Below, piece after piece: positions 20,093-22,383 of a stretch of DNA of 64,000 nt (positions are counted from its first letter, which is position 1; the number at the start of each line of letters is the position of its first letter). A program made the position numbers and the translations under genes. The stretch covers positions 620,001-684,000 of the forward strand of contig NZ_FSQW01000002.1 of the NCBI RefSeq assembly GCF_900128895.1. The letters run 5' to 3'. The notes beneath the pieces are model-generated. The model had not been told where the DNA came from. It did no database searches and saw nothing but the letters and a program-made list of their open reading frames with translations. The DNA is from Parasphingorhabdus marina DSM 22363. Its GTDB lineage: Bacteria > Pseudomonadota > Alphaproteobacteria > Sphingomonadales > Sphingomonadaceae.

Positions 20093-21351
20093 TACAATCC
20101 CCCCACAAATTTCTCGAACAGGTAGAAACTGTCCTGCGGGCCGGGGCTCGCTTCGGGGTGATATTGCACGCCAAAGGCGCGTTTGCCGGTGATGCTAATG
20201 CCGCAATTGCTGCCGTCGAACAGGCTTTTGTGGGTTTCGACCACGGTAGCGGGCAGCGTGTCGGTATCCACCGCAAAGCCGTGGTTCATGCTGGTGATTT
20301 CGACCAGACCTTCGCTGGCATCCCAATCCCCGCCGACGCGCTGGACCGGGTGGTTGGCGCCGCGGTGGCCCTGGTGCATCTTGACCGTCTTCGCCCCTGC
20401 CGCCAGCGCCAGCATCTGGTGGCCGAGGCAGATGCCGAACAGCGGCATATCCGCCTCGAGCAGCTGCCGGATCACAGGCACGGCATATTCCCCTGTCGCC
20501 GCCGGATCGCCGGGGCCGTTGGACAGGAACACGCCGGCAGGTTCTAGCGCCATGATATCGGCAAAGCTGGTTTCCGCAGGCACCACAGTGACTTTTGCGC
20601 CAGCTTTCACAAGATTTCTGAAGATATTCCGCTTCGCGCCAAAGTCCATCGCCACGACATGCGGCCTGTCTCTCCCCTCCCGCTCGCGGGAGGGGTCGGG
20701 GGAGTGCAAGTCTGAATCGGAGGATTCTGGCCCTCCCCTGGCCCCTCCCGCAGGCGGGAGGGGGATTGGCGCATAACCGTGACCCAGACGCCAGATGCCC
20801 GATTCCCAGATTTTCGTCTGATGCCCGGTCACTTCCTTGGCGAGATCCATGCCTTCCAGTCCGGCCCAGTCCCGTGCCTGTCCCAGCAAGGCATCGATAT
20901 CAAAATTGCCTTCCGGATCATGGGCAATCACCGCATTGGGGGCTCCCGCTTCCCGGATCCGCCGGGTCAGCGCCCTTGTATCGACACCGCTGAGGCCAAT
21001 CCGCCCCTGTTCCGCCATCCACTGGTCAAACGGCTTCTGGTCGCGGAAATTGCTCGGAGCTGTCACATCTTCCCGGACGATGCAGCCCAGAGCATGGGGC
21101 GTGTCCGCCTCGACATCCTCGTCATTGGTGCCGACATTGCCGATATGGGGGAAGGTGAAGGTGACAATCTGCCCGGCATAGCTGGGGTCGGTCATCACTT
21201 CCTGATAGCCGGTCATCGCGGTGTTGAAGCAGACTTCCCCGACCGCCGAACCGGTCGCGCCAAAGCCGCGTCCCCATATGATTGTACCATCGGCCAACAC
21301 CAATATCCCGGTTGCGCCCTGGGGAGCTTCGGGGATATTTGCATCGGTCAT
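20092..21351 (-). CDS. carA: Carbamoyl-phosphate synthase small subunit, with in-frame palindromic insert
   Basis: CarA is the glutaminase subunit that hydrolyses glutamine and channels ammonia to CarB. The 419-residue product has the N-terminal domain (GRGFGATGSAVGEVCFNTAMTGYQEVMTDPSYAGQ) and the class I amidotransferase domain with the catalytic Cys in FGICLGHQM and His/Glu in QYHPEASPGP. Between the domains, about residues 197-226, an extra stretch (PLPPAGGARGGPES...SPDPSREREG) interrupts the normal path from GHGYA to PHVVAMDFGAKRN. That stretch is translated from a pair of inverted palindromic repeats (20674-20763) and keeps the frame. The ATG at 21351 has GAGAGGA upstream; a longer GTG start at 21384 is possible. 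Confidence 0.96.
   Translation of the reverse strand: MTDANIPEAPQGATGILVLADGTIIWGRGFGATGSAVGEVCFNTAMTGYQEVMTDPSYAGQIVTFTFPHIGNVGTNDEDVEADTPHALGCIVREDVTAPSNFRDQKPFDQWMAEQGRIGLSGVDTRALTRRIREAGAPNAVIAHDPEGNFDIDALLGQARDWAGLEGMDLAKEVTGHQTKIWESGIWRLGHGYAPIPLPPAGGARGGPESSDSDLHSPDPSREREGRDRPHVVAMDFGAKRNIFRNLVKAGAKVTVVPAETSFADIMALEPAGVFLSNGPGDPAATGEYAVPVIRQLLEADMPLFGICLGHQMLALAAGAKTVKMHQGHRGANHPVQRVGGDWDASEGLVEITSMNHGFAVDTDTLPATVVETHKSLFDGSNCGISITGKRAFGVQYHPEASPGPQDSFYLFEKFVGGL
20674..20706 (+). repeat. Palindromic repeat unit A
   Basis: Arms 20674-20683 and 20686-20695, loop TC; tail TCGGGGGAGTG. On the carA strand it encodes SPDPSREREG. Confidence 0.85.
20731..20763 (-). repeat. Palindromic repeat unit B
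   Basis: Tail CCCTCCCCTGG at 20731-20741, arms 20742-20751 and 20754-20763, loop AG. Inverted relative to unit A; on the carA strand it encodes PLPPAGGARG. Confidence 0.85.
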
Positions 21352-21938: not shown

Positions 21939-21944
21939 CTAGTC

Positions 21945-21977
21945 CCCCTCCCGCCCGCGGGAGGGGTTAGGGGTGGG
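21945..21977 (+). repeat. Palindromic repeat unit C
   Basis: Arms 21945-21954 and 21957-21966 (CCCCTCCCGC / GCGGGAGGGG), loop CC; tail TTAGGGGTGGG at 21967-21977. The tail supplies AGGGG, a likely Shine-Dalgarno sequence for the DUF559 gene. Confidence 0.87.
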
Positions 21978-21978
21978 A

Positions 21979-22383
21979 TTGAACGAAAGCATTGTGGTAA
22001 CCTTCAGGAAAAGAGATACCAATCGCGCCAAAACCCTGCGCAATCAGGCGACACCCGCCGAACGTGAATTGTGGAAATACCTGAACAATCGCCGGGTTGC
22101 AGGATACAAATTCAGCCGACAGATGCCAGTGGGCCCGTATTTCGCCGACTTCCTTTGTCGCGAACTCAAGCTCATAATTGAAATTGATGGCTATTCTCAT
22201 GACACCCGACAGGGTTATGATTTGGCCAGAACGAAGGACCTGGAAAATCATGGCTATCGGGTGGCCAGATTCAGCAATCGGGATGTGATGACCAATGTCG
22301 AGGGCGTTGTGAGGGAAATAGAGCTTATTGTCTCCGGCATGCCCTCCCCTGACCCCTCCCGCAGGCGGGAGGGGAATCTATGA
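21979..22383 (+). CDS. DUF559 Vsr-like endonuclease
   Basis: A 134-residue protein of the DUF559 family, which shares the PD-(D/E)XK-type fold of Vsr very-short-patch-repair endonucleases. Family blocks: RAKTLRNQATPAERELWKYLNNRR, FSRQMPVGPYFADFLC, LKLIIEIDGYSHD (Asp of DFLC and Glu/Asp of EIDG are the likely metal ligands) and GYRVARFSNRDV. TTG at 21979 is preferred since AGGGG lies 5 nt upstream; GTG at 21973 lies inside that Shine-Dalgarno. The last residues (SPDPSRRREGNL) are translated from palindromic unit D. Its stop overlaps the dnaG ATG (ATGA). Neither repair nor transposition activity is established for this protein. Confidence 0.85.
   Translation: MNESIVVTFRKRDTNRAKTLRNQATPAERELWKYLNNRRVAGYKFSRQMPVGPYFADFLCRELKLIIEIDGYSHDTRQGYDLARTKDLENHGYRVARFSNRDVMTNVEGVVREIELIVSGMPSPDPSRRREGNL
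22342..22374 (-). repeat. Palindromic repeat unit D
   Basis: Tail CCCTCCCCTGA at 22342-22352; arms 22353-22362 and 22365-22374, loop AG. It is read as SPDPSRRREG at the end of the DUF559 protein and its right arm is immediately upstream of dnaG. Confidence 0.87.
22365..22379 (+). promoter_or_regulatory. Shine-Dalgarno sequence of dnaG lying in a palindrome arm
   Basis: The right arm GCGGGAGGGG ends 5 nt before the dnaG ATG at 22380 and contains GGAGG/GAGGGG, the only good ribosome-binding sequence there. In the mRNA the same bases can pair with the left arm (22353-22362) in a 10-bp GC-rich hairpin, which would hide the site unless ribosomes translating the DUF559 frame open it. Confidence 0.62.

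Follow-up and report, generated by a model that had tools for sequence, protein, structure and literature searches.

A DUF559 nuclease gene enclosed by inward-facing REP-like palindromes in Parasphingorhabdus marina: a probable small mobile element

The 430-bp segment separating yqeY from dnaG in Parasphingorhabdus marina DSM 22363 is, judged from its sequence, probably a small mobile element, present as an intact copy, in which one gene, coding for a DUF559 protein, lies between two inward-facing REP-like hairpin units. The segment occupies positions 21945–22374 of the window, the 64,000-nucleotide stretch of contig NZ_FSQW01000002.1 that was analysed, and it consists of a palindrome, the DUF559 gene and the inverted palindrome.

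An initial sequence-only reading had described inverted units of about 33 bp at both ends with tails pointing inward, perfect 10-bp arms and a 2-nt loop in each, and an enclosed DUF559 gene whose last residues were encoded by the right unit, and closer analysis confirmed each of these points. The 33-nt units, at 21945–21977 (left, forward strand) and 22342–22374 (right, reverse strand), form an inverted pair that is 91% complementary, and the palindromes proper, located at 21945–21966 and 22353–22374, both possess the perfect arms and short loop. The left unit comprises the palindrome CCCCTCCCGC-CC-GCGGGAGGGG followed by the inward tail TTAGGGGTGGG, the right unit is its inverted copy, and in both a C/G-rich palindrome adjoins a G-rich tail directed towards the gene. 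The enclosed ORF (21973–22383, forward strand) matches the DUF559 profile PF04480 with an E-value of 5.4e-37: its first GTG falls within the tail of the left unit, its C-terminus (PSPDPSRRREG) is encoded by the right unit, and its stop, just beyond that unit, overlaps the dnaG start. The host flanks of the insertion lie at 21939–21944 on the left, as part of a yqeY–dnaG junction that measures 4–10 bp in six relatives, and at 22375–22379 on the right. Four perfect-arm palindromes of this kind are present in the window against none in all 100 shuffles, and no Rfam motif was detected at the gathering threshold between 20500 and 22600.

The expectation that the unit would recur beyond the window was borne out by a search of the 3.55-Mb genome, which at up to three mismatches yielded 22 copies of the palindrome, designated family A, against one for the reversed control; these counts and those of the shuffles ruled out a chance palindrome. 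The 22 copies form 11 pairs, of which ten are short gene-less doublets (nine of 84 to 134 bp, plus one within carA) and one is the 430-bp pair holding DUF559, and this inverted-doublet arrangement is dispersed over the genome, as in REPINs. Inward tails are present at both ends in 10 of the 11 pairs, the pair at C2:834323 having an altered left tail, and inspection by eye of the 11 pairs and their 40-bp flanks revealed no constant GTAG or CGTC tag. The one doublet tested folds into a single long hairpin (z −8.4), and a lone palindrome unit folds only modestly better than its shuffles (z −1.5). A second doublet of the window, gene-less and passed over in the initial reading, lies at 20674–20763 and adds 90 bp, or 30 codons, in frame within the carA ORF; it sits in the linker between CarA's two Pfam domains and is absent from that linker in L139, whose YqeY is the most similar among the relatives. 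Inserts built from another repeat (GLSTSLETNG, SVRPEPVEG) were observed in the same CarA linker of several relatives.

The genome contains three DUF559 genes associated with three palindrome types. The second gene is enclosed by a different palindrome, of which just those two copies were found with the mismatch limits used; the third has a doublet of the third type just upstream, not enclosing it, whose two copies were likewise the sole copies found under such limits. A search for a Y1 transposase (RAYT, PF01797) gene gave no match in this genome, the same search being positive in 5 of 14 control genomes.

Within the Sphingomonadaceae, DUF559 is present in 172 of 199 genomes and Y1_Tnp in 31 of 199. 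Enclosure was defined as the presence around the gene of an inverted pair scoring at least 15 and containing a palindrome, and the family loci were the best-scoring DUF559 matches (30, plus 80 further loci, plus the three of the P. marina genome), weaker matches being left out. Selection of the 80 largely followed the order of the list; 18 higher-placed matches were skipped before their flanks were seen, mostly because they lay on small or broken contigs and in some cases by choice. On this basis 85 of 116 DUF559 domains (113 loci) proved to be enclosed by an inverted palindromic pair, as the sequence-only reading had anticipated for DUF559 genes elsewhere, though 31 of 116 were not. The comparison with other genes that it had proposed was made in the 80 loci longer than 4.5 kb (about 8 kb), where enclosure was recorded for 60 of 83 DUF559 domains against 1 of 375 neighbouring ORFs and none of 680 random placements. 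In a separate measure, a GC-rich hairpin was missing within 250 bp of 13 of 116 DUF559 domains, compared with 218 of 281 control ORFs.

Similar assays were extended to loci outside the family, 40 of them picked in the same way as the family's 80, and to a named set of loci across phyla, which includes Sphingomonadaceae and in which other phyla are assigned by record titles, mostly of metagenome-assembled genomes. Enclosure was found for 21 of 39 domains from other genomes of the class and 11 of 29 from the rest of the phylum (controls for both, 3 of 186), and for 41 of 77 in the named set (controls, 2 of 313), where the enclosed cases include some whose record titles name Chloroflexota, candidate division FCPU426 and Deltaproteobacteria. 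These wider counts omit L298, which has no domain, and four named-set loci that were truncated. Because four loci were counted in two sets (L198 = L132, L233 = L058, L265 = L031 and L235 = L307), the 41/77 is not fully independent, and for the same reason a few of the 176 element pairs compared below are counted twice. The palindrome-bounded DUF559 gene is, on these sequence counts, a widespread bacterial unit. Counting against its reading as a mobile element are the genes that are not enclosed, namely the 31/116 of the family, 18/39 of the class, 18/29 of the phylum and 36/77 of the named set, the upstream position of the doublet at the third P. marina gene, and the modest folding of the lone palindrome unit.

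Among the wider loci, four from alphaproteobacterial genomes of about 6–7 Mb (L300, L309, L333 and L335, the last of which fails the arm filter) have DUF559 flanks that, we presume, resemble the rhizobial RIME1 palindromes. At two others, L308 and L290, DUF559 elements lie 5.7 kb apart in one genome, are 86% identical over 589 bp, and carry long extra repeats outside their palindromes.

Comparison of palindromes with the proteins that they enclose indicated that palindrome distance tracks protein distance (Mantel r 0.51 for 85 elements in 61 genomes; none of 999 permutations reached this value, the largest being 0.10), part of which correlation is produced by physical linkage alone. Where an element had a same-genome paralog (41 elements), the mean palindrome distance to the nearest protein relative from another genome was 0.25, against 0.57 to the paralogs (p 2e-6). 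The idea that the palindrome is a host-wide trait was rejected because the palindromes of same-genome paralogs are no closer to one another than those of random elements (p 0.19). At protein identities of 60–75% (100 pairs) third codon positions were 46% identical and palindromes 93%, from which it appears that the palindrome sequence is constrained and shifts as the protein does; palindrome identity was 79% at protein identities of 50–60%, and 67–69%, the floor of the measure, below 50%. Palindrome type thus tends, so far as these comparisons indicate, to go with the protein and not with the host, and different nucleases mostly have repeats peculiar to them. Less in keeping with a mobile element driven by its own gene, family-A palindromes were also present in 26 of 47 genomes without a sampled A-type element, and A-palindrome copy number differed only weakly between genomes with and without one (p 0.035, 14 versus 47 genomes), A-type genes having been sampled non-exhaustively.

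The yqeY–dnaG junction was compared in 21 genomes of the genus, P. marina included, these being the ones with yqeY among 24 searched. It was empty (4–10 bp) in six, occupied by a type-A DUF559 element in another six and by a unit with a GIY-YIG gene in four, and held other DNA in the remaining five (an unrelated 355-bp ORF in four, another gene in one). An insertion common to all relatives at this place, which would have spoken against movement, was thus not what was found, and DUF559 at the junction of the five occupied relatives is 67–71% identical to the window copy, a pattern that may reflect either one ancestral insertion followed by losses or repeated insertion. Equivalent comparisons were made for the gene-less doublets of P. 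marina. In G207, the genome with the most similar YqeY, both flanks were identified for eight of the nine other doublets, and the same palindrome was present at none of the eight sites, five of which were empty to within 0–11 bp and three of which carried other DNA; the corresponding figures for the same palindrome were 0 of 7 in G205 and 2 of 7 in G213. At two of the sites (L020 and L024), the empty site in G207 and in G205 differs by exactly the doublet, with 0 bp beyond it and no visible duplication. Other REP-like units, one with a CGTC start, were seen in G213 at the doublet sites L019, L022 and L024, and it looks there as though a given junction could draw in palindromes of more than one kind.

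A broader comparison covered 176 pairs of related element loci, pairs more than 99.9% identical and elements with less than 600 bp of flank being left out. Both flanks were common in 64 pairs, which on that evidence are inherited in place and weigh against the mobile reading, one flank was common in 56, and in the other 56 the element alone was shared. In 26 of these 56 element-only pairs the homology breaks off, at both ends, no more than 15 bp from the palindromes' outer edges. One genome (G123) contains three copies, 78–96% identical, at three sites, with homology stopping 0–28 bp past the palindromes. The association of gene and palindromes, the pairing of palindrome with protein, the sharp ends in part of the pairs, the precise empty sites and the three copies in one genome are accordingly matters of record in the sequences compared.

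The yqeY–dnaG junctions of four relatives (L141, L142, L144 and L148) hold a different repeat-bounded unit, the gene of which codes for a GIY-YIG nuclease with no other domain (PF01541; one of the four matched with E 1.7e-17). On score alone, a criterion picked after the units had been seen, 16 of 17 short GIY-YIG loci of relatives have an inverted repeat scoring at least 15 no more than 300 bp away, whereas none of the 9 uvrC loci does (p 3e-6), nor does any of 340 random placements; with the preset filter, which adds a palindromic arm of 7, the count was 7 of 17 against 0 of 9 uvrC loci. In this set L168, L171 and L174 represent one insertion in different species, and L170, L173, L178 and L180 were left out of it. 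The short GIY-YIG nuclease genes in the loci compared thus parallel the DUF559 pattern. Three of the units (L177, L182 and L183) have CGTC or TGTC preceding the palindrome, with a CCA tail in L183, and most of the 17 loci have other repeat types. According to a published account (PMC3733652), CGTC-tagged REPs, mostly with CCA tails, predominate in Alphaproteobacteria and are apparently without a dedicated transposase, and the GIY-YIG genes are candidates for the missing partner.

The DUF559 protein of the window is, by family and fold, a predicted PD-(D/E)XK/Vsr-like nuclease, in which residues E30, D59, E70, D72, G73 and H76 are invariant across 53 DUF559 sequences drawn from several phyla and the window. 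Its predicted structure (mean pLDDT 84.7) found as best fold match 3hrl (NGO0050), an endonuclease-like protein, followed by 3r3p, the catalytic domain of the homing endonuclease I-Bth0305I (TM-score by target 0.73–0.75), which the sequence profile likewise matches (E 1e-4). Vsr itself matched the model weakly (1vsr, TM 0.42, E 0.053), so that the predicted fold is nearer to I-Bth0305I than to Vsr. No PADLOC model for an anti-phage system was matched. A 2026 study treats a DUF559-domain protein, Caulobacter VsrA, as Vsr-like and indicates that it can damage DNA in cells without the cytosine methyltransferase ScmA; its main text contains none of the terms "palindrom-", "inverted" or "transpos-" (PMC12907096). 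DUF559 proteins may, on the strength of that work, additionally serve a Vsr-like repair role.

As to mechanism, we infer that DUF559 is the enzyme that moves the palindromes and that the hairpin is its substrate. Most likely, in a judgement held with somewhat better than even confidence, the protein recognises its own palindrome and nicks or cuts there, mobilising both the whole unit and the gene-less doublets, the ensemble being a small mobile element. Recognition would be of the palindrome as a hairpin or cruciform, the nick or cut at the palindrome would allow the whole unit to be copied or inserted at new sites, and doublets with the same ends would be mobilised likewise. An equivalent role at classical GTAG REPs has been proposed for RAYT/TnpA-REP, an HUH transposase.

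The main rival is a drive of the homing type, in which DUF559 would cut in or close to palindromes or vacant allelic sites, break repair by the host would copy the unit, and the palindromes would serve for recognition or protection and would not be the ends of a transposon. Such a mechanism, which may share its first step with the one proposed here, is favoured by the match to the I-Bth0305I catalytic domain, second in fold to 3hrl and echoed by the sequence profile, and by the occurrence of the element at one and the same junction in 6 of 21 genus genomes. We nevertheless rate it as rather unlikely, both as to the copying and as to the role given to the palindromes: 56 of the 176 pairs lie at sites without a common flank, and gene-less doublets with the same ends occur at sites that are empty in relatives, a distribution that allelic homing alone does not explain. 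More doubtful again is the possibility that DUF559 is cargo of REP-like doublets whose movement depends on another enzyme acting in trans, for example a RAYT/Y1 transposase. Y1_Tnp genes do occur in 31 of 199 family genomes, but the P. marina genome has no Y1 transposase gene in the search for that family, and neither the recurrence of one protein family nor a palindrome type that follows the cargo's protein sequence under constraint would be expected of a passenger. A hairpin close to the end of a gene can terminate transcription, a property that counts in favour of a static arrangement. That arrangement, in which DUF559 is a host repair or defence nuclease and the palindromes are its terminators or regulatory sites, increased in number through ordinary recombination, accords with the DNA damage that Caulobacter VsrA, a DUF559-domain protein, can cause without ScmA (PMC12907096), but is the least probable of all given the inverted pairs at both gene ends, the empty sites, the homology edges at the palindromes and the lack of any PADLOC model match.

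The DUF559 gene of Escherichia coli, ycjD, is not enclosed by a pair, the best inverted score being 8. A CCCTCTCCCC-type unit was observed in the ycjD–fabI gap of E. coli K-12 (L376, 5205–5243), 165 bp downstream of ycjD, and may be a BoxC repeat. A 48-nt query from this unit gave 93,445 matches and was positive in 5,376 of the 5,426 E. coli genomes, with a median of 19 per positive genome.

REP-like palindromes are common in bacteria and RAYT is, to our knowledge, their known partner enzyme; among the open-access literature matches listed, no report linked DUF559 or GIY-YIG genes with REP-like palindromes. The present observations concern two unrelated nuclease families packed inside such palindromes, one of which occurs in several phyla and is still named a domain of unknown function, and suggest, from the sequences compared, that the palindrome-bounded nuclease gene is a little-noticed form of mobile DNA. 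There is a fair chance that these elements form a class of their own. The wider proposition is more tentative and in our estimation falls a little short of an even chance, namely that a whole class of palindrome-bounded mobile elements is driven by homing-type nucleases instead of transposases, with DUF559 serving C-rich palindromes and, independently, GIY-YIG serving others that include the CGTC-tagged ones. If it is true, REP families reported without a partner enzyme would acquire one, as possibly would the ycjD-linked repeat of E. coli; and if the nucleases act on the palindromes, unexplained repeats would gain an enzyme, a function could be assigned to DUF559, and laboratory strains would allow tests of a compact insertion chemistry that needs no classical transposase.

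Of known systems, the REPtrons and REPINs associated with RAYT are similar in their short palindromes, in the long hairpin that an inverted pair forms, in having doublets without a gene, and in the small nuclease gene beside cognate repeats. They differ in that the nuclease here is a Vsr-like DUF559 protein (PF04480), not an HUH Y1 enzyme (PF01797), no GTAG tag was seen, the inverted pair in most cases encloses the gene, and C/G-rich palindromes are joined to an inward tail rich in G; because HUH enzyme and GTAG tag are both absent, the element works like a REPtron but is not one. Homing endonucleases, of the I-Bth0305I and GIY-YIG types, include the nearest solved mobile relative by sequence and fold and are likewise small multiplying nuclease genes, I-Bth0305I having a Vsr-like fold. 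By way of contrast, no intron or intein was seen here, several non-allelic sites are occupied, and inverted palindromes form the bounds. Inverted ends of the sort known from classical transposons and insertion sequences are present, and in neither G207 nor G205 was a target-site duplication visible at L020 or L024. Vsr and Caulobacter VsrA probably belong to the same fold superfamily, and VsrA has a DUF559 domain in the account cited above, whereas Vsr itself (1vsr) is a weak match to the window model (TM 0.42, E 0.05). Finally, the CGTC-tagged REPs of Alphaproteobacteria resemble the present repeats in being common palindromic repeats of that class, reported to lack a dedicated transposase (PMC3733652); the palindromes of the window lack the CGTC tag, whereas CGTC or TGTC starts are seen around some of the GIY-YIG genes.
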